Below, piece by piece: positions 33,801 through 55,771 of a stretch of DNA of 64,000 nucleotides. Position 1 is the first letter of the stretch; the number at the start of each line of letters is the position of its first letter. Under the pieces are notes generated by a model. The model did not search any database, was not told the DNA's origin, and worked only from the letters and a program-made list of their open reading frames with translations. Position numbers and translations under genes: made by a program. Origin of the DNA: Pyrobaculum sp. WP30 (GTDB lineage: Archaea > Thermoproteota > Thermoprotei > Thermoproteales > Thermoproteaceae); NCBI GenBank assembly GCA_001189275.1, contig CP012158.1, forward strand, positions 186,001-250,000, written 5' to 3'.

Positions 33801-35462
33801 ATTCTGTCTATCGGGATCTTGGTGGGGAGGGAGTAGTACCGCATCTCAAATAGAGAATTGAAAGCTCCACCTCCTCGCAGAGCTCCCTGTGTCTCCACTC
33901 CTCCGCCGCATCTCAAATAGAGAATTGAAAGAATGATGAAGTCTTTGAAGAAGCCGCTCCCCCTCCTTATCTTTGCATCTCAAATAGAGAATTGAAAGGC
34001 GCCTTTTCTGTAAAGCGCGGCCGCCATTCATCTGCGAGCATCTCAAATAGAGAATTGAAAGCGCTAGCGCGTTTAAACACGGCTGAGTCGTTGTGCCGCA
34101 AGGCACGCATCTCAAATAGAGAATTGAAAGAAGTTCAGCTTGCGCAAGGCCACTACATGTGAAGGCGACGCGTGGCATCTCAAATAGAGAATTGAAAGAA
34201 ACCCTTCCGACGCGGACAGGCTGGCAAATGCTGAGTATTGAGCATCTCAAATAGAGAATTGAAAGTGGCCCTCTCGCCTGGCGTCCGCCCCACGCCGCGC
34301 GTGCGTCTCGGCATCTCAAATAGAGAATTGAAAGAGCCATCGCCAGCACCTCGTCCACCTTCGTAACCGTGGTCTCGCATCTCAAATAGAGAATTGAAAG
34401 AGTTGAAGCGGCTCACCGCCTGTAGCCAAATCTCCTGTGCATCTCAAATAGAGAATTGAAAGCGTTATTACGTCCTCCACAGTGCCGCCGTTTTGCCACA
34501 CCTCAGCATCTCAAATAGAGAATTGAAGGCAGTAGTCATCAATCGGCACGAACAGGTACGCATCCGCTGGGCATCTCAAATAGAGAATTGAAAGCCTCTT
34601 AAACGCCGCGGCGGCTGTTTGCGCCAGCTCGGCCAGGCATCTCAAATAGAGAATTGAAAGCTCCCCCCTGCGCTCGCACCTGACGCGCTTCACCATCCTG
34701 GCGATGCCGGCATCTCAAATAGAGAATTGAAAGACTGAGTCCATAGACCTGCCACTCCACGTCGCCATGCATCTCAAATAGAGAATTGAAAGGTAGGCCT
34801 CTCCACGGCTAAGCGCGTCGACTACAGCTGCATCTCAAATAGAGAATTGAAAGAGCTAGCTAAGACGGTGGTGAACTACATATACAACTTGCCCGACGAA
34901 GCATCTCAAATAGAGAATTGAAAGATGACGTTGTGGCAGTACTGCCCGGCCAGTACGTGGTGCTGGCATCTCAAATAGAGAATTGAAAGGCGAAGGCGAT
35001 GGTGACGAAGGCCCTCACGTCGCTTTCGGTCAGCATCTCAAATAGAGAATTGAAAGCTCAGGACCGTGTAGGCCTTGGCCCCATTGGGGTACTTCACTAT
35101 GGCATCTCAAATAGAGAATTGAAAGATAATCATAGCTCCCTAACCGACAGTGGTACCGCGTCGGCCGGCATCTCAAATAGAGAATTGAAAGGTATCCTTA
35201 TGGCAATTTGCTTAGCAACCTCCGGGATTATTGCGCATCTCAAATAGAGAATTGAAAGGCACGTTCCACGCCGCTTACCACCTCAGCGGCGGCGACGTGA
35301 GGGCATCTCAAATAGAGAATTGAAAGTTTCGCACACGTCTTGTCTAGCGTTGCATTTGACAAGTTTGACGTGCATCTCAAATAGAGAATTGAAAGCATAT
35401 ATTCACTTTATCTGCAGTCATGCCGTCTACGGAGAAGCGCATCTCAAATAGAGAATTGAAAC
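30870..35462 (+). CRISPR. CRISPR array 1, about 70 repeats
   Basis: A 24-base repeat (GCATCTC...GAATTGAAAG) recurs about 70 times with 69 unique-looking spacers averaging 42 bases. The terminal ATTGAAAG matches the 8-base 5' handle of type I-A crRNAs, and with the leader it shows transcription on the plus strand. Most repeats are identical. Exceptions are near 32726 (ACATCTC start), near 34506 (ending GAAGG), and the last at 35439 (ending GAAAC), the usual decay at the leader-distal end. The array shares repeat and leader with array 2, which adjoins the cas genes, so both should be served by the same Cas6 and Cascade proteins. Short open frames inside are repeat artefacts. Confidence 0.98.
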
Positions 35463-42505: not shown

Positions 42506-43606
42506 GCATCTCAAATAGAGAATTGAAAGATGGGTCTGATTTGGAAATCATCTCAGAGCCCAAGGTCGCGGCATCTCAAATAGAGAATTGAAAGGCCAGC
42601 TCCTGCAACGCCACCGGTATCACATCTAACTGTATGTGCATCTCAAATAGAGAATTGAAAGAACGTATACGTTATGACTAGATACCGCTCTGGTCGCTGA
42701 TACGCCGCATCTCAAATAGAGAATTGAAAGGGCGCACTTACCCACGGCGCACCCAAAGTGCAGGTCTACGCATCTCAAATAGAGAATTGAAAGCTATGTG
42801 GAGGGCGGCTGTGGTCTTCCCACTGCCCGGATCGCCCAGGAGAACAAGCATCTCAAATAGAGAATTGAAAGGCCCTTCAGGGGCGGGTCAGGACTTGAGA
42901 CACGGCGCATGTTGCATCTCAAATAGAGAATTGAAAGTAGGGTAATAACGAAGGGAGAAAAAAGGGTGGAGTTTTAGGCAAGCATCTCAAATAGAGAATT
43001 GAAAGGTTGCGACAGACATATCGCCTGAGGAGGTGGCATGACCGGCATCTCAAATAGAGAATTGAAAGCCTCCGAGGACGCCGCCAGGAACGCCGCCACC
43101 TTATATCCCGCGCATCTCAAATAGAGAATTGAAAGATCAGCGCATCCGTCAAGTACTGCACCTCAACTTCGACAACGTGCATCTCAAATAGAGAATTGAA
43201 AGTTTCCGCCATCGCCGACAGCGTTCTGGAGCGCGTGCGCCATCTGCATCTCAAATAGAGAATTGAAAGTGACATTGATGAGCTGAGGAAACAAGCACAG
43301 GGATGGGTCGAGAAGTTGCATCTCAAATAGAGAATTGAAAGGCGAGACACCACACCGACATCTTCCCAATCACGTATTCTTCTGCATCTCAAATAGAGAA
43401 TTGAAAGCAACTTCTTGGCAAGCGCCGTGCCGCCGTCTACCGAAACCGTGGCCTCAAATAGAGAATTGAAAGCAACCGCCTTTGTCGGTCACGTATTCCA
43501 TTGTGAACGTGGTTTGGCATCTCAAATAGAGAATTGAAAGCTCCTCCAGCCGCCAAGGCCAGGCTGTGGAGGTACGACGCAGGTATCTCAAATAGAGAAT
43601 TGAAAG
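42506..43606 (+). CRISPR. CRISPR array 2, 17 repeats
   Basis: Same 24-base repeat as array 1, 17 copies, with 16 spacers averaging about 43 bases. The fifteenth repeat lacks two bases (GCCTCAAAT instead of GCATCTCAAAT) and the last begins GTATCTC, marking the old end. Spacer 5 (42794-42847, 54 bases, unusually long) reads on its reverse strand as LLGDPGSGKTTAALHI, a Walker A motif, so its protospacer lies in a P-loop ATPase gene. The array ends 46 bases before the cas4 coding end, and is the one physically linked to the cas genes. Confidence 0.97.
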
Positions 43607-43652
43607 CTCTATCCAGCTATATGGCTTCTATTGTTGTTGGTGTTGTGGCGCA

Positions 43653-44195
43653 CTATTTGCGGTACCAGCATCCGGGGCATTTGTTGGGGTGTGGGCGTGG
43701 TTGTGGGGTGTGTCCTGTGTATATCTGGCGGATTTTGTCGGCGGTGTAGAGGACTAGGGTTTTGAGGTCTTGGGTGAGGGGTATCTCGGCGGTTTCGCCG
43801 GTTTCGGCGTAGTAGATGTAGCCTCTCTGGACTGCCTTGCCGTAGTGGGCCTGGGCGGCGAGCATGTAGGCGCCTAGTTGGGCTTTGTGGGGGGTTGGGA
43901 CGCGGCGGGGTTTGGTGGTGGTTTTTACCTCTAGTGGGGCTGGTCTGCCGTCTATGATGAGGACTGCGTCTATGACGCCGCAGAAGCCTGCCCCTCTGAG
44001 CTGGACTGAGTGTTCCACGGCCTCTGCGCCGAGGGCCTTCGCCACGGCTTCGACGGCCTCTTTCTGTGTTTCTTTGCCTTTTTTCATCCTCTCGGTGGGG
44101 GGCTCGGCGAGGCCCGCTATTACGTAGTAGGCGGCGGCTGGGCAGTAGAGGTACTGCCGTATCAGCGAGGGGTTAATGCAAGGCGGGGCCGTCAT
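43653..44195 (-). CDS. cas4: Cas4 nuclease of the adaptation module, truncated by a nonsense codon
   Basis: Cas4 is a RecB-like, iron-sulfur exonuclease that trims and selects prespacers with Cas1-Cas2. The first cluster cysteine is in LIRQYLYCPAAAYYV. The nuclease core has GVIDAVLIIDGRPAPLEVKT (Asp and ExK) and HKAQLGAYMLA (QxxxY). The C-terminus reads KCPGCWYRK, then TAG (43653-43655), then TGC. The family pattern CPGCxYRxxC therefore places a stop exactly at the residue before the fourth cysteine. Reading on would add about 11 codons to a second TAG at 43617. Cluster assembly should be impaired. It overlaps cas2 by 23 bases. Confidence 0.85.
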   Translation of the reverse strand: MTAPPCINPSLIRQYLYCPAAAYYVIAGLAEPPTERMKKGKETQKEAVEAVAKALGAEAVEHSVQLRGAGFCGVIDAVLIIDGRPAPLEVKTTTKPRRVPTPHKAQLGAYMLAAQAHYGKAVQRGYIYYAETGETAEIPLTQDLKTLVLYTADKIRQIYTGHTPQPRPHPNKCPGCWYRK

Positions 44196-44451
44196 GTCTG
44201 GGGGGCGGGATGGAGCCTATTCTGATCATTGTGTCTAGCGTCTTTTTGTCTATTTTGAGGATTATGACGTCTGCGTTGGCGTTTTTTATGACGCGTCTCA
44301 ACCTCTCGGCGAGCTCCTTCACCAGCGCGGGCGGGAGCCGGCCCACGTAGGCGGACTTTTGAACTCTGGCGAGGCCGAAGGCTTTTAGGGTCTCTGCAAC
44401 TTTGTTCCTCACGTCGTCTTCCGTCACGTCGTAGACCACCACTAAGTACAT
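44173..44451 (-). CDS. cas2: CRISPR-associated Cas2
   Basis: The 92-residue ferredoxin-fold protein forms the central dimer of the Cas1-Cas2 integrase. It starts YLVVVYDVTEDDVRNKVAET with the conserved Asp, continues LARVQKSAYVGRLPPALVKE, and carries the final strand DVIILKIDK. It overlaps cas1 upstream by 10 bases and cas4 downstream by 23 bases, indicating one co-translated adaptation operon read leftward. Confidence 0.93.
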   Translation of the reverse strand: MYLVVVYDVTEDDVRNKVAETLKAFGLARVQKSAYVGRLPPALVKELAERLRRVIKNANADVIILKIDKKTLDTMIRIGSIPPPRHDGPALH

Positions 44452-45326
44452 AGGGCCTTGGCCAGGGCCCGCGCCTCGCGGTGTATCTCCGCCGAGACGG
44501 GCCTCTTGGCGGCCGAGAACTCCTCGAGCACGGCGGCCGCGACGGCGAGGCGCGAGGCGTGGGTGAGGAGACCGTCTTTTGTCTCCAGCCTGTGCCTCAT
44601 CTGGGCCACCACGGCGTCTACCCGGGGCCTCCACTGCTCCATGAAGTCCAAGACGAGGGAGGGCCTCCCCGACTTGTCTACGTGGAGGAACCCAACGTAG
44701 GGGTCCAGCCCAGCCAGCAGTAGGGATTTGAAGCAGAGGGTCTTGAGGATGCCGTAGCCGTAGTTCAGCCCGGCGTTTACTGGGTCCCTCCCTTCTTGGT
44801 CTCTGCCGGGGAAGCCGGTCACCTCTCTGTAGGCGGCCCAGTAGGCCTCCGCCGCCGCGGCCTCGGCCTCCATCACCTTGTGCGGGGTGTCCGCCTTGGC
44901 GAGGGCCTCCTGGGCGGCGCGGATGGCATCGACGTAGTCGGCGTACCGCTGGAGCCTCCGGCGCCAGGACCTTACGTTCTCCAGCTGGCCCCGGATCTTG
45001 AGCCAGACCCACCTCTTGGCGGTTTCCAGCCCCCTCCCGTCGAGGGCGGCTTGGTACTGGCACCTCCTCTTGGCGCCGGTGGCGTCTCCCACAGGTCTCA
45101 TGAAGACGCCTAGGGGCCCGCCCCTCTGGTCGAAGACCGCCACCACGGCGCCTGCCCTGAGGAGCGCCCTCAGCGCCTTGGTGGTTATGGAGATGCCGCC
45201 GGTCAGCAGAAGCACCTCGTCTACCTCGTGTAGCGGGTACTGCCTCGCGCCGTCTTTCCCCTCCACCACCAGGAGGCCCTTCCTGGCCCTGATCCTGGTG
45301 CCGTAGGTGGCCACTACGATCTGCAT
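44442..45326 (-). CDS. cas1: CRISPR-associated integrase Cas1
   Basis: The 294-residue protein has the Cas1 N-terminal beta domain (IRARKGLLVVEGKDGARQYP, VDEVLLLTGGISITTKAL) and the helical catalytic domain. The active-site Glu is in VMEAEAAAAEAYWAAY, the His in GFLHVDKSGRPSLVLD, with the following FMEQWRP. It integrates spacers at the leader end of both arrays. The ATG at 45326 starts 13 bases inside the csa1 3' end. There is no sign of damage, unlike cas4. Confidence 0.95.
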   Translation of the reverse strand: MQIVVATYGTRIRARKGLLVVEGKDGARQYPLHEVDEVLLLTGGISITTKALRALLRAGAVVAVFDQRGGPLGVFMRPVGDATGAKRRCQYQAALDGRGLETAKRWVWLKIRGQLENVRSWRRRLQRYADYVDAIRAAQEALAKADTPHKVMEAEAAAAEAYWAAYREVTGFPGRDQEGRDPVNAGLNYGYGILKTLCFKSLLLAGLDPYVGFLHVDKSGRPSLVLDFMEQWRPRVDAVVAQMRHRLETKDGLLTHASRLAVAAAVLEEFSAAKRPVSAEIHREARALAKALCT

Positions 45327-46186
45327 ATGTGGTAGAAGGGGCAGGTCTTGGGGCACTGGGGCGGGGTGCCGGGGTCTCTGGCGGAGGCCACCACGTCCAC
45401 CGCCTCGTCTCTCGCCTCGAGGAACTTGAGGCGGGGCCCCTCGCCGAGGTGGTAGGCCTGGGCTCTGTACTCCACGGAGCCGTCCACCCAGATCTGGACG
45501 TGTATGCCGTAGTCTATGGGCATGCCGTACTCCGCCTCAATGGCCATGGCGTAGCCCGCCAGCGCCGCGTCGACGTTTTGAGAGGGGCCGAATTTGAACT
45601 CCACAACGGCGCCCAGCGCCACGCCGTCTGCCACCACGTAGCCGAGGCCGAGGGGTGCGCCGTCTACCGCCACCTGTGTGTGTATGGGCGCGGCGTAGAA
45701 GGCGGCTGAGTCCCTGCCCCAGGCGAGGCCGGAGGCCAGTACGTAGTGGTACTCGCCGAGGAGCCTCGCCGCCACGTATCTATAAAGCGCCTCAGCCTTG
45801 GGCTTGAACTCCTCCGGCACAGCCTCGCCGGGGCCGGACATGGGGACACCTGCGTAGACAAACCTTCTGAAGTCCTCCAGCGCCTTGAACAAGGCGGCGT
45901 GGAGGGCGGAGCCCTCTAGGAGGGGCTTCGCGGGCTGGGGCCTCTCTCTGAGCACGTACTTTAGGTATAGGTTTCTGCCGGTGGGGCAGTAGCCGTAGGC
46001 GAAGTCAGACAGCGCGATGCCGAGGTGAGCAGGAGGCCTCACCGGCGGCTTGTCAAAGGACCACCCCCTCAGCTCAGGGGGCGTGTCGGGCTGGCCGCCT
46101 GTTATGCGCACCCGGCGGAGGAGTCTGGCTATCTCCATGAGGGTTAGCACGAAGTTTTGATCAACTCCCCGTATTATCCGTGACAT
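45314..46186 (-). CDS. csa1: Csa1, Cas4-related type I-A adaptation protein
   Basis: The 290-residue RecB-like protein has the nuclease core as AALAGYAMAIEAEYG preceded by LGAVVEFKFGPS (ExK), with cluster cysteines at YGYCPTGRNLYL and near the end in CPKTCPFYHIC. Csa1 forms part of the type I-A adaptation complex with Cas1, Cas2 and Cas4. All four cysteine positions seem present, so Csa1 might partly substitute for the damaged Cas4. It is the first gene of the leftward operon and diverges from csa3 across a 42-base spacer with a palindrome. Confidence 0.85.
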   Translation of the reverse strand: MSRIIRGVDQNFVLTLMEIARLLRRVRITGGQPDTPPELRGWSFDKPPVRPPAHLGIALSDFAYGYCPTGRNLYLKYVLRERPQPAKPLLEGSALHAALFKALEDFRRFVYAGVPMSGPGEAVPEEFKPKAEALYRYVAARLLGEYHYVLASGLAWGRDSAAFYAAPIHTQVAVDGAPLGLGYVVADGVALGAVVEFKFGPSQNVDAALAGYAMAIEAEYGMPIDYGIHVQIWVDGSVEYRAQAYHLGEGPRLKFLEARDEAVDVVASARDPGTPPQCPKTCPFYHICRS

Positions 46187-46228: not shown

Positions 46229-46843
46229 ATGCGCCTCGCCGTCACGCTCAGCTTTGAGAGCACTCTGGTGATTAGGGCCGTGGCGAGGCTCCCCCGTGCC
46301 GACGACTACGTCCTCCTGCGGGCGCAGACCGGCACAGAGGGCGACGTCAAGTCCGCGGAGACCGCCGCCGACGTCATAAAGGCGCTGGGGAGGGGGCGGG
46401 AGTTCGCCGTTGACATCCGCGACTTGGCGAGGGGGATAGAGCAGCTAGCCTCGCTCGACTTCGACGCGGTGGCGCTGGCAGGCGGGCCCAGGTCGCTGGT
46501 CCTCTTGGCTTTTGTGGCGGCTGCGCTGAGGGGCGCCAAGATCTACGTAGTTCCGGAGTACGCGGCTGACCCCTTCGACGCGACTGCTCTGGCCGCCGCC
46601 TTCAAGCTCACCTGCCTAACCCCGGCGAAGCTCAGAGTCTTGGCTGAGGCCGACGGCCCAGCCGACGAGGTGGCGCGGAGACTCGGCATTGACAGCTCCA
46701 CAGCTTACAGGCATCTGGAGGACCTGGCGGAGAGGGATCTCGTAAGGGTTGAGGGCAGTAGGTCGAAGACGTATAGAACCGATACGGTAATTAGGACCCT
46801 TGCCAAAATGTTTTTGCAAAGGTCTACACAGCACCGATATTAG
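46229..46843 (+). CDS. csa3: Csa3, CARF-wHTH regulator of the cas locus
   Basis: The 204-residue protein has an N-terminal CARF/Rossmann domain (LAVTLSFESTLVIRAVARL, AVALAGGPRSLVLLAFVAA) and a C-terminal winged helix (LTPAKLRVLAEADGPADEVA, RRLGIDSSTAYRHLEDLAER). In Sulfolobus, Csa3 proteins bind cas and leader promoters and respond to cyclic oligoadenylate. Position between the two divergent cas operons supports the same role. A perfect palindrome immediately upstream is a likely binding site. Fewer than 50 bases separate it from the interference operon start. Confidence 0.88.
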   Translation: MRLAVTLSFESTLVIRAVARLPRADDYVLLRAQTGTEGDVKSAETAADVIKALGRGREFAVDIRDLARGIEQLASLDFDAVALAGGPRSLVLLAFVAAALRGAKIYVVPEYAADPFDATALAAAFKLTCLTPAKLRVLAEADGPADEVARRLGIDSSTAYRHLEDLAERDLVRVEGSRSKTYRTDTVIRTLAKMFLQRSTQHRY

Positions 46844-46857
46844 TTTTGTATACAGGA

Positions 46858-46872
46858 AAATTTATATATATT
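46858..46872 (+). promoter_or_regulatory. TATA-like promoter of the interference operon
   Basis: AAATTTATATATATT lies 17-31 bases before the csa5 ATG at 46888. It is the only strong promoter-like element ahead of seven overlapping cas genes, so transcription of csa5 through cas6 probably starts here with a leaderless message. Confidence 0.65.
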
Positions 46873-46887
46873 CACTATCATGATCCT

Positions 46888-47319
46888 ATGGTTGGGGGTA
46901 TAGAGATCGATAAAGAAACATTATCTGAATTCACGTCGCTGTTCAAATTCTACATCGATGCGGGGAAATACAGCGTTGTGGATCGGTTTGCCTACGCCAT
47001 AAGTCCAGTAAGTGCGATCTATGCGCTCTACGAAGCTGTCAGAGAGATTAGAAGCGCTCTCGACCGAGCCGTTGAGGTCGAGTATGAAAAAGAAGGCAAA
47101 AAGAACCGCGTCAGGTGTTGCGAATACGAAGAATTTAGAGGCGAATGCAAGTGGCTTGTAGGCGTCGCAGGTGGCGAAAAGAAGTATTGCTGTCTCCCGT
47201 GTCCACATATACCCAGCGATGAAGCTGTGGCGAAGCTTGTGGAGGTTCTGAGGAGAGACGTATCTGTAGCCACAAAAATCGCCGCTATGGCGATGGCGTA
47301 TAGGGCTAGGAGGGAGTAG
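46888..47319 (+). CDS. csa5: Csa5, small subunit of the type I-A effector
   Basis: The 143-residue mostly helical protein opens the interference operon, the expected place for the small subunit of Cascade/I-A. It begins VGGIEIDKETLSEFTSLFKF, contains ISPVSAIYALYEAVREIRSA, and ends DVSVATKIAAMAMAYRARRE. An unusual cysteine cluster (RCCEYEEFRGECKW and KKYCCLPC) could bind zinc or iron-sulfur. The assignment relies on position, size and helical pattern more than on sequence motifs. ATG 46888 fits the TATA-like box. The next gene starts one base after its stop. Confidence 0.7.
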   Translation: MVGGIEIDKETLSEFTSLFKFYIDAGKYSVVDRFAYAISPVSAIYALYEAVREIRSALDRAVEVEYEKEGKKNRVRCCEYEEFRGECKWLVGVAGGEKKYCCLPCPHIPSDEAVAKLVEVLRRDVSVATKIAAMAMAYRARRE

Positions 47320-47320
47320 T

Positions 47321-48310
47321 ATGTTCCTCTCCTTCTCCCTGCGGGTTCTGGTGGATGCCGAAGCCCTAAACATGGTTGAAAGCACTGGCAACTACACGAA
47401 GCACAGGAGGGCCCCTCTGGTGGTCCCCGTGGAGGGCGGGTTCGAAATCCGCTACGTGCCGGCGGTAAGCGGGGAGTCGCTTGCCCACGCTTACCAAGCG
47501 ATTCTGGCGGAACTTGCGAAGGAGCGAAAGTTGCCTGTCTGCGAGAGATGCGCCACAGGCGAGTTTCTTAAACACGCAGAAGATGAGATTTTTGGAGATA
47601 GTGAATGGGAGAAACAGGTTCAGAGCTATGCCAAAAATAAAGACTTCCACAGCGCCGAAAAGACATTGATAACCAACTGCATGGTGGAGGACGTCGGAGG
47701 CTTCCTCTACACCAATGGCAATGTCAAGAGGACTTCACGCGCGGCGTTTGGCTACATGTTGCCAGCCAGAGACTTCGCACAAGCCGCCGCTGTCGAGCCC
47801 CAGTTCCACGTGAGACATGTGCCGTCTCAACCCGAAAGAGGTAAGCAGATGATATACTACGTAGAGACGAGCTCGGCGCTTTACGTTCTAAGCGGCTATT
47901 TGGATATTTGCGGTGTCGGTTGCACCTCCATGATACGGAGAGAGTGTCTGCAAGACGCTGACAAGCGTCGTGAAACCGCGTTAAAGGCGCTAGTGCTAAT
48001 GCTGGCGAATCAGTTATACGGCGCGAAGCGGAGCAGGTTTCTGCCAGCATGGACTGTGGCAAGTGCGGTCTTCGCCGCGGCAAAGTCTCCGTTTATGGTC
48101 ACTCCTGGCCACGTTAAGGACTACATAGACGAGACGATAAAAAGAGCCAAGGCCTATTCCAAGAATTTCGGCGACGAGGTCTTTATCTATTACTACATAA
48201 GGGAGGGTTATGATAAGTCTCCTGCCGAAAGCGGCGGTGAGAAGGTGGCTGCGAATAAGCTTGGACAAATAGAGGAGCTAGCCGGGATGCTGAAATGGAA
48301 GTGCTCATAG
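47321..48310 (+). CDS. cas7: Cas7 (Csa2/DevR family), backbone subunit
   Basis: The 329-residue RRM-fold protein polymerises along the crRNA. The start FLSFSLRVLVDAEALNMVES and YVPAVSGESLAHAYQAILAE are conserved Csa2 blocks, and VCERCATGEFLKH is a cysteine-containing insert. The C-terminal part has FVTPGHVKDYIDETIKRAKA-type helices (with MVTP in this protein). Complete and of normal length. It overlaps cas5 by 16 bases. Confidence 0.88.
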   Translation: MFLSFSLRVLVDAEALNMVESTGNYTKHRRAPLVVPVEGGFEIRYVPAVSGESLAHAYQAILAELAKERKLPVCERCATGEFLKHAEDEIFGDSEWEKQVQSYAKNKDFHSAEKTLITNCMVEDVGGFLYTNGNVKRTSRAAFGYMLPARDFAQAAAVEPQFHVRHVPSQPERGKQMIYYVETSSALYVLSGYLDICGVGCTSMIRRECLQDADKRRETALKALVLMLANQLYGAKRSRFLPAWTVASAVFAAAKSPFMVTPGHVKDYIDETIKRAKAYSKNFGDEVFIYYYIREGYDKSPAESGGEKVAANKLGQIEELAGMLKWKCS

Positions 48311-49014
48311 TCCGTGGGAGACTTCACTGGGGATTTTCGGTAAAGTACCCGCTCCAATCTGCAGCGCAGTTTCCGTTGCTAATCCCGCCGCCTACTACGC
48401 TGGTGGGGGCTCTTGCCTATGGGTGCAACGAAGGTGTTGAAACTTCCGAGGATAGAGTGTCGGCTGCCGCAAGGCTTCTTAATAACGTAAAATGGGCGGC
48501 GTTTGGATTCGACGAAACCCTCCGCGGCTTGCGGCTCTCTTTGTTGGCTGTGGCAGACATGTCGCGGAATATAGCTGCGCCATATGTGCGGAAGGCGGAG
48601 CAGGCACTTTTTGCGGTACAGGCTATGGGGAGAGTATATGCGGCTGGAATGCGCATTAAGATTGTATATCTCGGTGAGGGGCTTTCAAAACTTGTAAAAT
48701 GTGGATGGCAGATCACGCGGATAGGGAGCAAGGAGTCTCTATTTGAGCCGAGTGATGTTGAGCTTCATAAGGTAGAGAGAGTAGATGCAAAAACTTTCGC
48801 CACTTCGCTATATGTGCGTGCAGACGTGGCGAGACCTACTGATCCAAGCAAGGTTACTGAGTGGGAAGTGTGGCCTCTTGCTGAGGGGTCGTTTCACTTC
48901 TGGAGAGGGGGGCCGCAGGAGGTCGTCAAACTTTACCTACCTCTAAGGCTTGAGGAGGTCTCTTACGAGAGTGAAAGGGTAATTAAGTTCGGCGAGGAGC
49001 TCTATGCGCTGTAG
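48295..49014 (+). CDS. cas5: Cas5 (type I-A), crRNA 5'-end binding subunit
   Basis: The 239-residue RAMP protein caps the 5' handle of crRNA. The N-terminus has GRLHWGFSVKYPLQSAAQFP and LLIPPPTTLVGALAYG, the Cas5a signature. A glycine-rich part follows (RVYAAGMRIKIVYLGEGLS). The chain ends EERIKFGEEL-like helical residues. It begins inside the cas7 3' end and overlaps cas8a2 by 11 bases, so stoichiometry is probably set by translational coupling. Confidence 0.85.
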   Translation: MEVLIVRGRLHWGFSVKYPLQSAAQFPLLIPPPTTLVGALAYGCNEGVETSEDRVSAAARLLNNVKWAAFGFDETLRGLRLSLLAVADMSRNIAAPYVRKAEQALFAVQAMGRVYAAGMRIKIVYLGEGLSKLVKCGWQITRIGSKESLFEPSDVELHKVERVDAKTFATSLYVRADVARPTDPSKVTEWEVWPLAEGSFHFWRGGPQEVVKLYLPLRLEEVSYESERVIKFGEELYAL

Positions 49015-49999
49015 CAACCCCCCTCCCAGGGATACGCTTGGCTATATCTTCTATATGCACGCCTGTCCCCAGGGAGTCTCATGGAGCGAAGTGAGAGAGA
49101 GATGTCTCACGGCGGTCGACGAGGCCAGAAAGAGGAATATACGCGTATTTGTCTCAGGTAACGACAGTAGATATGTCGTCGGTGCGATGGCAAAGAACCT
49201 AGGTATAAAAACTGAGGGAGAAGGAAAGACGAAGAAGAAAGGGAAAGGCGGTAGCGAAGTCCTGTTAGATGTGCTTGGGGAGTTCTTTCGACGAGATATG
49301 GACGACCAGAAACACTACGCCATGCCGAATCTATTTAGGGCGACCTACTATGAGAACGACCGGAGTCTTAAGGACGTAGAAATGAAACTTACGGGGACGC
49401 AAGTGGCTCTTTCGTACTGCGGCGCTTTGCTCACATATGTTGGCGATGTATACCGCGGGTTAGAGGGTCAGATATATCTGCTGGCCGACGTGGAGAACCC
49501 AGTAAACTATGATGTTCTTCAAATCCTTGAAAGACTTGTGGAGAAGTACAGAGAGGCGCCGATAAAGGAGGCTAGCTTCGCGTTAAAGAGGCTCTATTTG
49601 TCCGCGTGCGTCGATAGACCTATCGAACCTGTGGAGCTATTCATTGCGAGAGGCAATAGAGCTACGCTTGTTGCGACAACTAGGTTCATGCTTTACGACT
49701 TGCCCGGTAAGGTCAGAGAAGACTTGATGCGGTCTATGGCCTTGCTCTCCAACGACAAGGTGTTTGAGTATGCTACAAAACTCGCAACTTTATTGGAACT
49801 TTTCTTTGAGAGCACATACAGGCAGAGCGGGGGGAAGAAATACAGAAGGGTCGAGTGGCTCTATGAGGCCGGGAGGATATTGGAGTCTTTAGCAAATATG
49901 AAGACTGAGGATAAAGATATGGCGCAAGTCAGGAGGTATGCGGAAATAGTGCGCCCGGCGCTGAGGGACCTCATACATGAAGCTATGTTAGAGATATAA
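49004..49999 (+). CDS. cas8a2: Cas8a2 (Csa4), large subunit of type I-A effector
   Basis: The 331-residue protein is the short large-subunit type used by I-A systems for PAM recognition. Seen segments are GYIFYMHACPQGVSWSEVRE, a charged linker GEGKTKKKGKGG, ALSYCGALLTYVGDVYRG and RLYLSACVDRPIEPVELF. Identity rests on position between cas5 and cas3' and on length, plus a resemblance of the N-terminal DTLGYIFYxH block to Csa4. It ends with TAATG overlapping the helicase start. Confidence 0.75.
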   Translation: MRCSNPPPRDTLGYIFYMHACPQGVSWSEVRERCLTAVDEARKRNIRVFVSGNDSRYVVGAMAKNLGIKTEGEGKTKKKGKGGSEVLLDVLGEFFRRDMDDQKHYAMPNLFRATYYENDRSLKDVEMKLTGTQVALSYCGALLTYVGDVYRGLEGQIYLLADVENPVNYDVLQILERLVEKYREAPIKEASFALKRLYLSACVDRPIEPVELFIARGNRATLVATTRFMLYDLPGKVREDLMRSMALLSNDKVFEYATKLATLLELFFESTYRQSGGKKYRRVEWLYEAGRILESLANMKTEDKDMAQVRRYAEIVRPALRDLIHEAMLEI

Positions 50000-51495
50000 T
50001 GCGGAAGCTGGCGCGAGAGGTCTCTGAGAGATTTACCGGGAGGCGAGGCGGCGTTGTGGTCTTCGTTGCGCCGACGGGCTACGGCAAGACAGAGGCGGCG
50101 CCTTATGCCTTTAAGAACAGCGGTATGCCGCGGGCGGTGCACGTAGCGCCTATGAGAACACTTGTCAATGCCGTATACGAGAAGTGGCTTAAGCATGCAA
50201 CCAGCATCGGGCTACCTCAGGAGGAGGTGGGCTGGCAACACATGTCCGCTTACACATACGGAAAATCTCCATATTTTCTACGTAGGGCGGTCGCGACCAC
50301 GTTCGACTCTTTTATCTATAACCTCTTCAAGATGCCTGTTGCTAGATTTGGTGAGGAGAGGGCGCACTATGAGCTCCCCAGATCTGCTATCTTCAGCGCC
50401 TTGGTTATATATGACGAAGTTCATCTCTACGGGGGAGATCCCGGCAACTCGGACGAAAAGATGTTTTCGTCGTTTCTCGCGGCATATCGAAGTACTTTAG
50501 ACAACCCATTGTTGGTTATCACTGCCACTCTTCCCAAGTGCGTGTTGGAACAGCTTGAAAGAGAGGCCCGCGGAAGTGGGGTAAATTTCGAGATCGTGGA
50601 TTATTACGAAACTCCAGATAGGGAGTTCGAGGAAGAGCTGAATAGAGTGAAGATAGAAACTGAGATAGTAGACTCGATAGATGAGGTGCGTTCGTGCGGG
50701 AAGACGCTTTACATATTTAACACAGTGGAGAGGGCGGTTAATTTCTATAGAAAGATAGAGAGCGGCGACGCCGTGTTGATACACGGCAGATTCACTGCGG
50801 CGGACAGGGAGGGGAAAGAGCAAATGATAGAAAAGGCTAAGGTTATAGTTTCGACGCAGGTCGTGGAGGTCGGAATCGATATAGATGCCGACACTCTGGT
50901 GACCGACGCCGCGCCTCTGACTTCGCTGGTTCAACGGGCCGGCAGAGTATGCCGATACCCAAGAAAGGGCAGGCGGTGCAAAGTCTATGTCATACGGGGC
51001 AACGGCGATGGAATATACGACGAGAAGATCGTAGAGAGGTCTCTTAAAGTTATTGACACTGATTTCGACTGGAGGCATCCCAAAGATGCCATAGCTAAGG
51101 CATATGGGAACTGCAACATTGAGTACAGAGCAGGTATTGTCATGTGGCTTAGAGCCATTGATCTTCGTCCTTTTGCGACAACCAGTCGTAGCGCCAGAAT
51201 ATTTGAGGAGCTGTGCGGAGCGGTTAGAGACAGCGTATTGGTACCTGTATACGTCGCCCATGATCCACCCAAGACCTTGAGGGAGCTGGGGATACATAGC
51301 GTTGCCGTGAGCGAGGGCTTGGCGAAGAAAATAATTGAAGCAGGTGGGAAGGCAATTGTCGAGGGAGCGGATGGGAGGCTGGAAATAAAAGAGGGCTCGC
51401 CGAGCGGAAACATATGTCGAGAATTTCTCTCTAAGAAGTTATTGGCGCTTTACTATCCGCAGGGCTATAGCAGAGAATACGGGCTAGTCATATGA
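49999..51495 (+). CDS. cas3': Cas3' helicase
   Basis: The 498-residue SF2 helicase unwinds targeted DNA. Motif I is VAPTGYGKTEAAPYAF, motif II IYDEVHLYGGD (DEVH box), motif III VITATLPK, and motifs V/VI STQVVEVGIDIDAD and LVQRAGRVCRYP. The C-terminal third is helical with no added nuclease; the HD nuclease is the separate next gene, as usual for type I-A. Start and stop overlap both neighbours. All catalytic motifs look intact. Confidence 0.92.
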   Translation: MRKLAREVSERFTGRRGGVVVFVAPTGYGKTEAAPYAFKNSGMPRAVHVAPMRTLVNAVYEKWLKHATSIGLPQEEVGWQHMSAYTYGKSPYFLRRAVATTFDSFIYNLFKMPVARFGEERAHYELPRSAIFSALVIYDEVHLYGGDPGNSDEKMFSSFLAAYRSTLDNPLLVITATLPKCVLEQLEREARGSGVNFEIVDYYETPDREFEEELNRVKIETEIVDSIDEVRSCGKTLYIFNTVERAVNFYRKIESGDAVLIHGRFTAADREGKEQMIEKAKVIVSTQVVEVGIDIDADTLVTDAAPLTSLVQRAGRVCRYPRKGRRCKVYVIRGNGDGIYDEKIVERSLKVIDTDFDWRHPKDAIAKAYGNCNIEYRAGIVMWLRAIDLRPFATTSRSARIFEELCGAVRDSVLVPVYVAHDPPKTLRELGIHSVAVSEGLAKKIIEAGGKAIVEGADGRLEIKEGSPSGNICREFLSKKLLALYYPQGYSREYGLVI

Positions 51496-52127
51496 TATTC
51501 TCGTGGCCTGGTGAGGACTTATTTGAACATGGACGCGATGTAGCGCTAATAGGTGAATGTCTCTTCCCAGAGGAGACGCGCTACTATAATGCGCTCCTGA
51601 ATGAGCTTGAAAACCAAGACAACAACTGGTGGAGGGTAGCCGCGGCCCTTCACGACATAGGAAAGGCGCATAAAGAGTTCCAAGTGACGATCTGGAGAAA
51701 ACCCAGCTTTACCTGCCACGAACTCCTCTCAGCACTCTACATCTGGGAGGCGCTAGAGGCAAGCCCAAAAATACGTGCGGCGGTCGCTCTCACTGTTCTA
51801 TTGCACCATCATGCCATGGACCGCTTCGAGACATGTATAAAATCCGTAAAAAGATTCGAGACAGCCGACGGATTTACAGATTATGTGAGTAGATTTTCCA
51901 AATGGTTAGGCGTAGGTATTCGACCTATTGAAAACATCACCGCCGATATCGGAGCTCTCAAGAGGTGGATAGATCAAAGGATATATAGAATCGCCGTGAT
52001 AGGGGTCGGCCCCATTGCCGTGGCTGATCACGTTGCCGCCGCGAGGCGCGGCGGCTATTCATCAAGGCTTTTGGAAGAGCTTAAACACGAAATAGGGGGA
52101 CGTCTCGAGAAGTGTAAAGCAATATGA
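51492..52127 (+). CDS. cas3'': Cas3'' HD nuclease
   Basis: The 211-residue HD-superfamily nuclease degrades the DNA strand displaced by the effector. AAALHDIGKAHKEFQ carries the His-Asp doublet, FTCHELLSALYIWE and LLHHHAMDRFE supply further metal ligands, and GPIAVADHVAAARR the last Asp. It begins in the helicase stop (ATGA) and overlaps cas6 in the same way. Intact, in contrast to the HD remnant about 1 kb downstream. Confidence 0.9.
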   Translation: MIFSWPGEDLFEHGRDVALIGECLFPEETRYYNALLNELENQDNNWWRVAAALHDIGKAHKEFQVTIWRKPSFTCHELLSALYIWEALEASPKIRAAVALTVLLHHHAMDRFETCIKSVKRFETADGFTDYVSRFSKWLGVGIRPIENITADIGALKRWIDQRIYRIAVIGVGPIAVADHVAAARRGGYSSRLLEELKHEIGGRLEKCKAI

Positions 52128-52888
52128 TTGTAGAAGTTAAAGGGATTCTGGCAGAAAACGCGGTAATCAGCACATTTTCCGGAGCGATAGCGCAGTCCAT
52201 TGTACTCTCTCTATTAAACAATCCAAGTCTTCACGGGATGAGACCGAAGCCTTTCACCGTATGGCCGCTTGTTGTGGATGGCAAGCCTCTATGGGATAGG
52301 GGAATCGTCAACTCAGGCGCTCTTTTGGAATTGAGAGTTGCCTTTCTCAATCGCGCGCTTGGAGAGGAGTTTTTCAGCATTATGGCGAGCACGCGCCGAT
52401 TTCTTTTATTCAAGTCGGAGGTAGTTATAGACACCATTTCGGCTAGGGAAGTTAGACTCACCAGCAGTTCCTCATCTGCGTTTCGCGTTGAGTTCCTCTC
52501 GCCGACGCGTTTCGAGACTCCTCCATATGTGAAACGGCCTACGCCAGTTTACGACTTGACGCCTAGGCCGCTGAATCTTTTCAAGTCTGCTGTCAAGACC
52601 GCCATGAGGCTGGGGCTTGTGGATGCGCGGTGGGCTCGGAGGTTTCTGCGGTGGGCCTACGCCTCGGTGGGCGTGGCGGACTTCGGTTGCCGCGGGAGGT
52701 GTGTGGTGTCTGTGCGGCTGTCGGGGGGCCGGAGACTTCGGGGTTTTGTAGGGTGGGCCCTGTACCGAGCCTTCGAGACGTCCATGCTGGGGGACATGTG
52801 GCGTATGCTCTCCGTGGCGGAGGCCTTCGGCGTGGGGAGCAACAGACCGCTGGGGCTCGGGGCTGTCAGAGTCACGCCTCTGCAGTAG
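52124..52888 (+). CDS. cas6: Cas6 CRISPR RNA endonuclease, copy 1
   Basis: The 254-residue double-RRM RAMP endonuclease cuts the repeat to leave the ATTGAAAG handle. AIAQSIVLSLLNNPSLHG, KPFTVWPLVVDGKPLWDRG and VEFLSPTRFETPPYVKR are shared with copy 2. The C-terminal glycine-rich loop is FGVGSNRPLGLGAVRV. It closes the interference operon. The last 60 bases are almost identical to those of the second cas6, suggesting recent duplication or gene conversion. Confidence 0.88.
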   Translation: MIVEVKGILAENAVISTFSGAIAQSIVLSLLNNPSLHGMRPKPFTVWPLVVDGKPLWDRGIVNSGALLELRVAFLNRALGEEFFSIMASTRRFLLFKSEVVIDTISAREVRLTSSSSSAFRVEFLSPTRFETPPYVKRPTPVYDLTPRPLNLFKSAVKTAMRLGLVDARWARRFLRWAYASVGVADFGCRGRCVVSVRLSGGRRLRGFVGWALYRAFETSMLGDMWRMLSVAEAFGVGSNRPLGLGAVRVTPLQ

Positions 52889-53089
52889 GAAGGGGTTGCT
52901 CAGTCGAAAGGTATAGCCTGCTCGTCGTGTCTAGATCCGCCGTGTTTGATGACGAGGCTGGGTTGGGAGTCGAGCTGATTCGGGGGATGGCCGCCGGCGG
53001 ATTGAAGTCGACAGCTACAAGAAGGCGGAGGTATGGAAAGATGGCATGACCTATTGCTCCGCGTAACACGGGATTGGGACAAAGGAGTA

Positions 53090-53399
53090 CTGTAGGCATA
53101 AAGAGCTGGCCCTCGAGGAGCGGTGCAAATTAAGGCCTTACTACGGGAGGTGGCTCAAGAGGATGTTGGGCGACAAAGACGTCGTAGAGCTTGCCATACT
53201 GTTCCACGACATGAGTACTTTGCAACGTATGAGCCTACGGCGTTCAGCGCATCGGGCGAGTACGCGCTATTCGGCGGGGTGGCGAGGCAGATGCTCTCAG
53301 CGTTAAGAGGCTCGGGGAAGGACTCGGTAAGAGGGAGGAAAGCCCGTAGCCTAATGGCAGACTTGGAGAAAGTTACAAATATCCTCCTCAGTGCCGAAC
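53090..53399 (+). pseudogene. HD-nuclease (second Cas3''-like) remnant
   Basis: One frame gives RHKELALEERCKLRPYYGRW, LKRMLGDKDVVELAILFHDM, an HD-type motif after a helical start. Just after it the frame shifts and continues EYFATYEPTAFSASGEYALF, GGVARQMLSALRGSGKDSVR and ADLEKVTNILLSAERW, which ends two bases before the ATPase gene. The text resembles an HD nuclease whose catalytic middle is partly deleted. It probably headed the downstream ATPase-nuclease-cas6 module. The 200 bases before it (52889-53089) show only fragments in broken frames. Confidence 0.5.
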
Positions 53400-53400
53400 G

Positions 53401-54243
53401 ATGGAATTTGAGGTAAGCATTCGGCCTAATGCGGAGAAGCCGCTTCTCGAAGGCTCAGGCACACTAGGCGACATTACTGTCATAATGGGGAGGCCCAGGA
53501 CCGGGAAGTCGCTTTTCCTCCGCTACCTCTTTGCGTTGTTTTCAGAGGATTACGAGCTGGCCATGCGCACCTCTGAGCAAATCCTTGATAACGGCGGATG
53601 GGCGAAGCTGAGGGTAGGCAACATCCTGCTTAGTTGTTCAAAGTCTGATGGAGACGAGGTGGGATGCGACATAACACCTCACCCGAGGGAGGAGGCGTAT
53701 TTGTTTTATGAGGGCGTCCTTTTCACGTTGAAATATCGCCTTATGAGCCCGGAGTCAGCTGAGGTGACAAATGCCATGGCGAGACTGTTGGAGCGCATTG
53801 CTAGGTATAGGGAGGGGAGGTGGAGGTATGATGTTGCGTATTCCTACGGCGACAAAAAATTTTATGAGCGCGTAGACGGAAGGCAGATAGACTTAGCCTT
53901 TGCCTCTGCCGCGGTTGTGACGGTTGGTGTGTTGGAGAGGGCGTTTCTGCTCGACGCGTGGCTTCTGCTTGACGGCACTCTGGATGAGCTGTTTCCCGAG
54001 GAGGTGTTTTACCTCGCTGGTCGGGCTTCTTCGGCTAGGGCGCGTCTTGTCGTGGCGACGCATTCGCCGTGGGTTCGTAGGGTTTTTCGATGTCACCGTA
54101 GCGTGGCGGAGGCGCAGGTTATGCCTGCGGCGGATAAGTCCGCGATGGCGTACGAGTTTGTGGACGGGACGGTGCGGGAGATCGACCTCGCCTCGGAGAC
54201 CTACGGGAAGGCGTTTGGGAGGCTGTATGAAGTTTGTGAGTAG
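53401..54243 (+). CDS. P-loop ATPase (ABC/SMC-like) inside the cas locus
   Basis: The 280-residue protein has Walker A MGRPRTGKSLFLRYLF near residue 30, a Walker B-like WLLLDGTLDELFP near 185, and VVATHSPWVRRVF near 218, the D-loop/H-loop region of ABC-type AAA ATPases (AAA_21/OLD class). Between them GDKKFYERVDGRQIDLAFAS may represent the signature helix. A cysteine pair (CSKSDGDEVGC) lies in the insert. This is not a standard Cas protein. The downstream nuclease-like gene overlaps by 17 bases and cas6 copy 2 follows, so the three should act together. A TATA-like ACAAATATCC lies about 20-28 bases upstream. Confidence 0.75.
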   Translation: MEFEVSIRPNAEKPLLEGSGTLGDITVIMGRPRTGKSLFLRYLFALFSEDYELAMRTSEQILDNGGWAKLRVGNILLSCSKSDGDEVGCDITPHPREEAYLFYEGVLFTLKYRLMSPESAEVTNAMARLLERIARYREGRWRYDVAYSYGDKKFYERVDGRQIDLAFASAAVVTVGVLERAFLLDAWLLLDGTLDELFPEEVFYLAGRASSARARLVVATHSPWVRRVFRCHRSVAEAQVMPAADKSAMAYEFVDGTVREIDLASETYGKAFGRLYEVCE

Positions 54244-54742
54244 CTGTCCATGTGTGGTCAGAGTTGTGACATCTATAGAGGGCAGGTTGTGCAACTTCTT
54301 CGTGAGGTCTGCGCGGATGAGGCTGAGCGATGGGAATGAGCGGGCGAGGTACGGCAGGTCTGTCCTAGACGACGAGGTGGAGCGGTGTCCCATGCCGTCT
54401 GGGGAGGGGGAGGTGGACTGCTTGGCCGACTGCGGCGGCGGTGTGCGCGGCGTTGAATTTAAAAGCTACATGGGCAGGTCTGAAGGCCGTGGGGGGAGGG
54501 TGGGCGGGATGTGGAGTGAGCTTTCTAGGAAGCGGGTTCTGGGTAGCCCTTGCGGCTCTAGATGTTCCTTGGCTCTTGTGGTGTTTGAAGAGGATCTTAC
54601 CTACGCCCGGGAGGAGGCGGAAAGCACCGCCGCGCGGCCGCGCGTGGGCATTGCGTATACGGTAGACGAGCTGACGCAGAAGGTCTGTGGCTACGACATT
54701 GTGTTTCTAGTCGTTAGACAGGCTGGGGTTTGTTGCCGCTGA
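54227..54742 (+). CDS. Cysteine-rich PD-(D/E)XK-like nuclease candidate
   Basis: The 171-residue product starts KFVSSCPCVVRVVTSIEGRL and contains GEVDCLADCGGGVRGVEFKS. The Asp in GEVD (about residue 64), a turn, then GVEFKS with Glu and Lys (77 and 79) reproduces the D-x(12)-ExK core of PD-(D/E)XK nucleases such as Cas4 and RecB. An arginine-rich linker and IAYTVDELTQKVCGYDIVFL strand follow. There are about a dozen cysteines, so an Fe-S or zinc site is plausible. The start overlaps the ATPase end and the stop overlaps the cas6 ATG (TGATG). I know no described family for it; the nuclease reading is inference. Confidence 0.55.
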   Translation: MKFVSSCPCVVRVVTSIEGRLCNFFVRSARMRLSDGNERARYGRSVLDDEVERCPMPSGEGEVDCLADCGGGVRGVEFKSYMGRSEGRGGRVGGMWSELSRKRVLGSPCGSRCSLALVVFEEDLTYAREEAESTAARPRVGIAYTVDELTQKVCGYDIVFLVVRQAGVCCR

Positions 54743-55551
54743 TGGCCGCTGTGGTTACTGTGCGCGGCCTCGCCTCCAGCGGCTTTGTGGTAAATGTGTT
54801 TTCCGGCGTCGTTGCGCAGTCCGTAGTGCTTGCCTTGCTGAATGAGCCCAGGCTTCACGATGTGAGGCCTAAGCCTTTTACAGTGTGGCCGCTTGTGGTC
54901 AACGGAAGGGTGGTGTGGAACAGAGCCCTGGCCCCCGCTGGCGCCGCGGTGGAGCTTAGGGCGGCTTTCTTCGACGGGGGGCTTGCCGAGGTGTTTATGG
55001 AGAGGGTTATGGAGGCTGGGCGCTTTAGATTATTCAATGCCGAGGTGGCCGTGGGGGAGGTGGAGGTGCGGCGCGTCGCACCTGCGGCAGGTTCCTCGTC
55101 TAAGTTCAAGGTGGAGTTCCTCTCGCCTACGCGTTTCGAGACGCCGCCGTATGTGAAGCGGCGTGTGCCCGTGTTCGACATGGCGCCGTCGCCGCGCAAC
55201 TTATTCAAGTCTGCGATTAAAACCGCCATGAGGCTCGGCTTGGTGGATCTGAGGTGGGCTAAGAAGTTCTTTCGCTGGGCAATAGCATCCGTTGGGGTTC
55301 TCGACTTCGGCTGTAGATGCGAAACGCACCGGGGACGCGACCAGAGAAGCAACGTCGGAAAGTGCACAGCAGCGGCTAAGCTATCTGGCGGCAGGGTCCT
55401 CCGCGGCTTCGTGGGCTGGGCCGTGTACCGGGCTTTCGAGACGTCCATGCTGGAAGACATGTGGAGGATGCTGTCGGTCGCCGAGGCCTTTGGCGTGGGG
55501 AGCAACAGACCGCTGGGGCTCGGGGCTGTCAGGGTCATGCACCTGCAGTAA
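54742..55551 (+). CDS. cas6: Cas6 CRISPR RNA endonuclease, copy 2
   Basis: The 269-residue paralogue of the first Cas6 carries the same blocks: VVAQSVVLALLNEPRLHD, KPFTVWPLVVNGRVVWNRA, VEFLSPTRFETPPYVKR and FGVGSNRPLGLGAVRV. It differs by an insertion of about 15 residues (CETHRGRDQRSNVGKC) with extra cysteines. N-terminal halves are diverged while the 3' end is nearly identical at DNA level to copy 1. It is overlapped with the ATPase/nuclease pair, and might process the same repeats or a different array elsewhere. Confidence 0.85.
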   Translation: MAAVVTVRGLASSGFVVNVFSGVVAQSVVLALLNEPRLHDVRPKPFTVWPLVVNGRVVWNRALAPAGAAVELRAAFFDGGLAEVFMERVMEAGRFRLFNAEVAVGEVEVRRVAPAAGSSSKFKVEFLSPTRFETPPYVKRRVPVFDMAPSPRNLFKSAIKTAMRLGLVDLRWAKKFFRWAIASVGVLDFGCRCETHRGRDQRSNVGKCTAAAKLSGGRVLRGFVGWAVYRAFETSMLEDMWRMLSVAEAFGVGSNRPLGLGAVRVMHLQ

Positions 55552-55676
55552 GGCTTTTTATGGCATTCGTAGGCGGAGGTGAGCGAGGCGTATGCGCTGG
55601 CTGTGTAAGACAGGCTGAAGAGCGAGGGTCGTGCTGTGGTTTTTGCGGTGAGGAGAGTGGGGCGTGGCTGGGTGAG

Positions 55677-55771
55677 TGGGCCCGCCGGGATTTGAACCCG
55701 GGACTTCCCGGTTATGAGCCTTACGCGGGGCTGGGCCCCAGGGCGCTCTGACCGGGCTAAGCTACGGGCCC
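55677..55771 (-). tRNA. tRNA with CAT anticodon (Met or Ile2), non-canonical intron
   Basis: On the minus strand the acceptor stem GGGCCCG pairs with CGGGCCC and is followed by discriminator A. A D-arm and a T-arm CCGGG-TTCAAAT-CCCGG are clear. The anticodon loop is CTCATAA with stem CCCGG/CCGGG, but the 5' strand is interrupted after CCC by 20 bases (55721-55740) that form GGGGC-CCA-GCCCC, a bulge-helix-bulge-like insert at tRNA position 29/30. Removing it leaves 75 nt. CAT can specify elongator Met or, with agmatidine, Ile2; the G1-C72 pair argues against initiator. CTTTAAATC lies about 20-29 bases upstream. Confidence 0.88.

Follow-up and report, generated by a model that had tools for sequence, protein, structure and literature searches.

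Septu (PtuA-PtuB), including the PtuA effector of retron Ec78/I-A, is a two-gene defense module in which an ABC-type ATPase of approximately 550 aa is accompanied by a small nuclease-like partner, the HNH nuclease PtuB. PARIS (AriA-AriB) likewise joins an ABC-type ATPase to a partner effector, AriB, which is a TOPRIM/DUF4435 protein. Gabija consists of GajA, an ATPase-TOPRIM protein, and the helicase GajB, and the OLD-family ATPases carry a C-terminal TOPRIM nuclease domain. Among CRISPR-Cas systems, accessory effectors are known for type III. Bernick et al. (2012; PMC3396285) described a cluster of nurA, csm6, and herA close to CRISPR arrays of Pyrobaculum. The gene pair analyzed here, encoding an ABC/OLD-type ATPase and a cysteine-rich nuclease-like protein (NUC), is likewise a CRISPR-linked combination of an ATPase and a nuclease-like protein in the same genera, but its protein families and position differ from those of that cluster.

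The ATPase and NUC look like a new CRISPR accessory pair that resembles two-gene ATPase-nuclease defense modules and is undescribed in the literature covered. Table A1 of Bernick et al. (2012; PMC3396285) skips both genes, which, judging from the numbering, bear the tags Tneu_1130/1131, PAE0203/0204, and Pogu_1141/1142, between those that the table lists. A search of open-access CRISPR papers for some of the locus tags of the pair found no mention of them. No model of Pfam, NCBIfam, or PADLOC covers NUC or names the ATPase, and neither protein belongs to a named Cas or PADLOC family, as an earlier annotation made from the letters alone (the sequence-only reading) had supposed.

The pair was found in a 64,000-nt stretch of Pyrobaculum sp. 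WP30 DNA (the window), where all parts named in the sequence-only reading were located and the three genes in question were intact and overlapping. The ATPase gene (53401–54243, + strand) encodes 280 aa with the Walker A motif GRPRTGKS (53488–53511), the motifs LLLDGTLDE and ATHS, and the Walker B residue Asp191 (53971–53973). NUC (54227–54742, + strand) is a 171-aa protein when read from the ATG at 54227, and it contains an N-terminal CPC, a DGNE, and the motif GEVDC...GVEFKS, in which Asp64 (54416), Glu77 (54455), and Lys79 (54461) carry the numbering given before. A second cas6 (54742–55551, + strand; 269 aa from its ATG) lies 3′ of NUC and matches PF10040 (E value, 4e-14) and TIGR01877 (E value, 1e-19). 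Given a 17-nt overlap between the ATPase and NUC genes and one base common to NUC and cas6 (TGATG), the translation of these genes is probably coupled. Such coupling is usual for the pair, and the overlap of ATPase and NUC is approximately 4 nt at most loci.

The pair adjoins a complete type I-A operon (46229–52888, + strand) of csa3, csa5, cas7, cas5, an unclassified gene, cas3′, cas3′′, and cas6. The description of this operon as canonical held gene by gene, save for the unclassified gene in the place of cas8 (49004–49999, + strand), whose 331-aa product matched no Pfam or PADLOC family and may be a divergent large subunit. The adaptation genes csa1, cas1, and cas4 (43653–46186, − strand) are intact, with cas2 between cas1 and cas4, and a CRISPR array with 17 copies of a shared 20-mer lies beside the cas locus at 42506–43607. 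A second and much larger array with approximately 70 copies of a shared 20-mer is located upstream of the cas locus at 30870–35461.

By its sequence profile, the ATPase is ABC/OLD-like, as had been proposed. The best PDB relative of the profile was 6p74 of the OLD family (E value, 4e-10), and Pfam AAA_21 and AAA_15 were matched, mostly weakly, by five of eight members. The ABC core, with Walker A, the acidic residue of Walker B, the ...LHP motif, and the switch histidine, is common to these ATPases, to OLD-family ATPases, and to AAA_21/AAA_15. Unlike OLD proteins, however, the ATPase is only 280–337 aa long and has no TOPRIM or further domain according to Pfam scans; it comes with a small partner encoded by a gene of its own, and it occurs only in type I-A cas loci. 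PtuA chains (E value, 3e-4) and AriA (E value, 0.008) were among its weak PDB matches, although its length is well below that of PtuA. The pair also differs from Gabija in lacking TOPRIM and in having a non-helicase partner of 120–192 aa, and it gave no PADLOC match to Gabija or Septu.

The catalytic glutamate is absent from all 11 ATPases, in which the Walker B aspartate is followed by Gly, Asn, or Asp (Gly after Asp191 in the window), whereas the unlinked OLD-like paralogues of related genomes have two consecutive glutamates at Walker B (E-E-P-E). The Walker B aspartate and the switch histidine are kept in 11 of 11. In ABC enzymes, such a change of the catalytic glutamate slows hydrolysis and favors the ATP-bound dimer, and we infer the same for these ATPases. 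For an ABC-type ATPase, the uniform loss of this residue is an oddity that is both specific and testable.

To determine the distribution of the pair, 81 genomes of the class were searched with profiles, and NUC was also sought in a 398-genome sample of the phylum. The pair occurred in 10 Thermoproteales genomes, that of the window included, each time within a type I-A cas locus. The carriers include T. tenax (G015), P. neutrophilum (G005), P. aerophilum (G001), P. oguniense (G006), Vulcanisaeta sp. JCM 16159 (G075), and two Thermoproteaceae/Thermoproteales metagenome-assembled genomes (MAGs); P. neutrophilum, P. aerophilum, and P. oguniense were recognized by agreement of their CRISPR-array coordinates with Table A1 of PMC3396285. 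In an 11th genome (G003), the ATPase is accompanied by a frameshifted NUC, of which VDCVVDC...VYFKS is readable in another frame. Among the 81 genomes of the class, linked ATPases scored at least 138 bits and the next unlinked match 57 bits; the frameshifted Vulcanisaeta copy was split into pieces. NUC was present in 10 genomes, all of which also have the ATPase, and none was detected outside cas loci in the 81 class genomes or the phylum sample. Annotated neighborhoods of 16–20 kb confirmed a type I-A locus around every copy. Eight of the nine genomes of the order with PF09703 cas8a2 have the pair, and the four genomes with PF09703 elsewhere in the class are all without it. The pair was not found in the viral contigs, plasmids, or phages searched, and a scan of genome contigs matched only four named loci.

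Several other matches were discarded. Those of the ATPase profile in G004 and G007 were unlinked OLD-like proteins with an E-E Walker B and no NUC. A NUC match in G258 (E value, 0.004) contained internal stops and was disregarded. The NUC of G265, a genome of another family, lies on a 4.5-kb contig (C129, locus L079) from which the ATPase is deleted; it was taken as a probable contaminant because the proteins of this contig are 94–100% identical to P. aerophilum type I-A references.

An adjacent pair that recurs in the type I-A loci of nine other genomes makes the find in the window far beyond chance, and conservation of the pair beside CRISPR loci of several Thermoproteales, which the sequence-only reading had suggested as a point to survey, was borne out. 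We are highly confident that the ATPase and NUC form a real and conserved module linked to type I-A.

The gene order around the pair varied among the carriers. In T. tenax, P. neutrophilum, P. oguniense, and the two MAGs, the pair comes 3′ of cas8a2 and shares its strand. It lies between cas3′′ and cas6 in G014 and between the broken cas3′′ and cas6 in the window, and in G003 the ATPase and broken NUC follow cas3′′. In G073 and Vulcanisaeta sp. JCM 16159, the pair is inverted between cas8a2 and cas6. In P. aerophilum, the ATPase follows cas8a2, and NUC is immediately convergent to it. The common neighbors are thus cas8a2 and cas3′′, and the window and G014 are the only cases of a cas6 after NUC. 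This variation indicates that the constant partner of the pair is the type I-A effector operon and not cas6; the earlier idea that the pair is tied to crRNA processing was therefore not supported.

Overall, the reading that we prefer, with a probability of roughly 0.4, is that the pair serves the type I-A CRISPR-Cas systems of the archaeal order Thermoproteales as an optional accessory module, with an ATP-gated, nuclease-like role in interference. The ATPase would dimerize around ATP and, without its catalytic glutamate, stay ATP-bound on DNA for a long time. The dimer would hold or position NUC, a small and putatively metal-dependent nuclease-like partner, and invader DNA opened by Cascade-Cas3 would then be further cut or held by NUC. 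This mode would be like that of the two-gene ABC-ATPase/nuclease defense pairs Septu and PARIS, here serving CRISPR interference. We hold this mechanism, in which the ATP-bound ATPase positions NUC on DNA, tentatively and at slightly less than even odds. A narrower version, in which the glutamate-less ATPase is an ATP-bound clamp gating a PD-(D/E)XK-like NUC for second-line DNA degradation or an abortive response in the type I-A systems of hyperthermophilic archaea, is doubtful. In vitro, DNA is targeted and degraded by the type I-A Cascade of T. tenax even when the pair is absent, and only six Cascade proteins were named in a Csa5 pull-down (PMC4005679; PMC4141822), so the pair is not a core subunit. 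It lies directly behind the T. tenax operon, the best-studied crenarchaeal type I-A Cascade operon, and is also present in classic genomes such as that of P. aerophilum. If a conserved ATPase and nuclease-like accessory for type I-A is confirmed, it would change the in vitro reconstitution of type I-A immunity.

The association of the two genes was analyzed by comparing protein distances. ATPase and NUC distances were correlated across all loci (r = 0.95) and across seven non-redundant loci (r = 0.74; exact Mantel p = 0.014). ATPase distances were uncorrelated with those of the effector helicase Cas3′ (r = 0.06, p = 0.30) and of the adaptation proteins (r = 0.16–0.29). With seven independent loci, such statistics carry modest weight. 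G071 and G073 share the same operon (Cas8a2 71% identical), but in G071 cas6 directly follows cas8a2 and the pair is missing, which indicates that the pair is an optional cassette. In the P. aerophilum-like contig, the ATPase is gone, and with it the end of NUC. These results show that the ATPase and NUC move and disappear as one unit within type I-A effector operons. Of the proposal that an independent defense pair had captured a cas6, the separable pair thus stood and the cas6 did not. Selection also acts on the ATPase, with a dN/dS of 0.21–0.25 in two close pairs; the values for NUC were 0.67 and 0.30.

The main rival to our reading is a self-sufficient ATPase-nuclease defense or addiction module with the logic of Septu, PARIS, or OLD; it would make no contact with Cas proteins but find shelter in cas loci, which it might guard, becoming active upon inhibition of CRISPR. 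The joint deletion fits this explanation, as do the survival of the pair in the window after decay of its parental operon and its movement between two divergent type I-A effector lineages, exemplified by G014 and P. oguniense, whose ATPases are 54% identical and whose Cas7 proteins are only 26% identical. However, a free-standing pair would not need to be confined to type I-A loci, where every NUC was found, and we consider this explanation unlikely.

The NUC proteins are 120–192 aa long. Their invariant or nearly invariant residues include an N-terminal cysteine pair (CPC; CISC in G073), D-x-N(E), a cysteine in the middle of the chain, V/A-D-C, E-F, and a later cysteine. D64 and E77 are invariant, and the hairpin D-C-x(10-11)-V/I/F-E-F-K/T resembles the D...E-x-K hairpin of PD-(D/E)XK enzymes. 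In the top hhalign alignments of NUC, with Hjc and Cas4, its D and E-x-K were paired with the catalytic D and E-x-K, and with Csa1 the E-x-K was paired; these alignments were non-significant, but control families aligned elsewhere. Cas4 and Csa1 are likewise small cysteine-containing D...ExK proteins of the same loci with matching motif registers, but both are present as separate genes, the cysteine spacing of NUC differs, the hhalign probability against their profiles was below 1%, and no PADLOC Cas4 model was matched. In contrast to PtuB, NUC has D...ExK/T with invariant D, N, C, D-C, E-F, and C; since it has no invariant histidine, assignment as an HNH nuclease was rejected. It also differs from AriB in matching no TOPRIM/DUF4435 model.

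A nuclease fold of NUC is suggested, and the register of D...E-x-K agrees with the earlier assignment to PD-(D/E)XK. No profile or model confirmed it: nothing of note was matched in Pfam (E value limit, 10), NCBIfam, PADLOC, PHROGs, or PDB sequences, and the motif lysine, kept in the window and three other members, is a threonine (EFT) in five of nine, namely in T. tenax, P. neutrophilum, the two MAGs, and G073. AlphaFold2 models of the window and P. oguniense proteins had pLDDT values of 32.6 and 38.1, respectively, and gave no usable fold. The low-confidence P. oguniense model has the order helix-strand-strand(D59)-strand(E73-x-K75) expected of a PD-(D/E)XK core (alpha-beta-beta-beta-alpha-beta), and its Foldseek matches were meaningless glyoxalase-like noise. 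The missing profile matches, the threonine variants, the poor models, and the conserved cysteines would also fit a non-nuclease NUC, a cysteine-rich metal-binding or disulfide-stabilized partner with the hydrolysis-poor ATPase as a nucleotide switch that regulates or scaffolds the type I-A complex. The invariance of D64 and E77 and the pairing of motif residues in the alignments argue against this explanation, which is quite unlikely.

A role in adaptation was also considered, in which the pair would process DNA ends or prespacers. ATPase-nuclease pairs can process DNA ends, and the P. aerophilum NUC is directly behind csa3, beside the adaptation operon. Outside P. aerophilum, however, the pair follows effector genes. 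Both cas4 and csa1 are intact in the window, and neither cas1 nor csa1 co-varies with the pair (r = 0.16–0.32; Cas1, 0.16). Such a role is therefore very unlikely, and the suggestion that the pair replaces Cas4 was not supported.

In the window, the broken HD-nuclease gene reported 5′ of the ATPase is a frameshifted cas3′′ remnant (53082–53400, + strand), which was matched in tblastn by T. tenax Cas3′′ at 53082–53228 (43% identity; E value, 5e-12) before the frame is lost, and by the P. aerophilum protein (45%; E value, 9e-9). It was therefore rejected as a duplicate of the window's own cas3′′. Both matching proteins belong to the cas8a2-type operon, and PF09703 cas8a2 had no match in the window's genome. 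Given the type of the remnant, the pair here seems to be what survives of a second type I-A operon that was lost; the simplest reading is that it came with such an operon of the cas8a2 type and outlived it. That the pair is a functionless leftover in this genome, as its position behind a broken cas3′′, the missing cas8a2, and the broken NUC of G003 might suggest, is highly improbable, since both genes are intact, keep Walker A, the Walker B Asp, D64, E77, and K79, and overlap a complete cas6.

The cas3′′ remnant and the pair are flanked by the two cas6 genes (52124–52888 and 54742–55551, both + strand), of which the second, overlapping NUC as had been noted, is not a conserved partner. The two Cas6 proteins are 64% identical. 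At the DNA level, the identity of their genes is highest at the 3′ end, where it rises to 80–88%, a pattern consistent with gene conversion or unequal recombination. Just beyond the second cas6, a tRNA-Gly (CCC) gene (55676–55771, − strand) lies at the outer edge of the cas locus.
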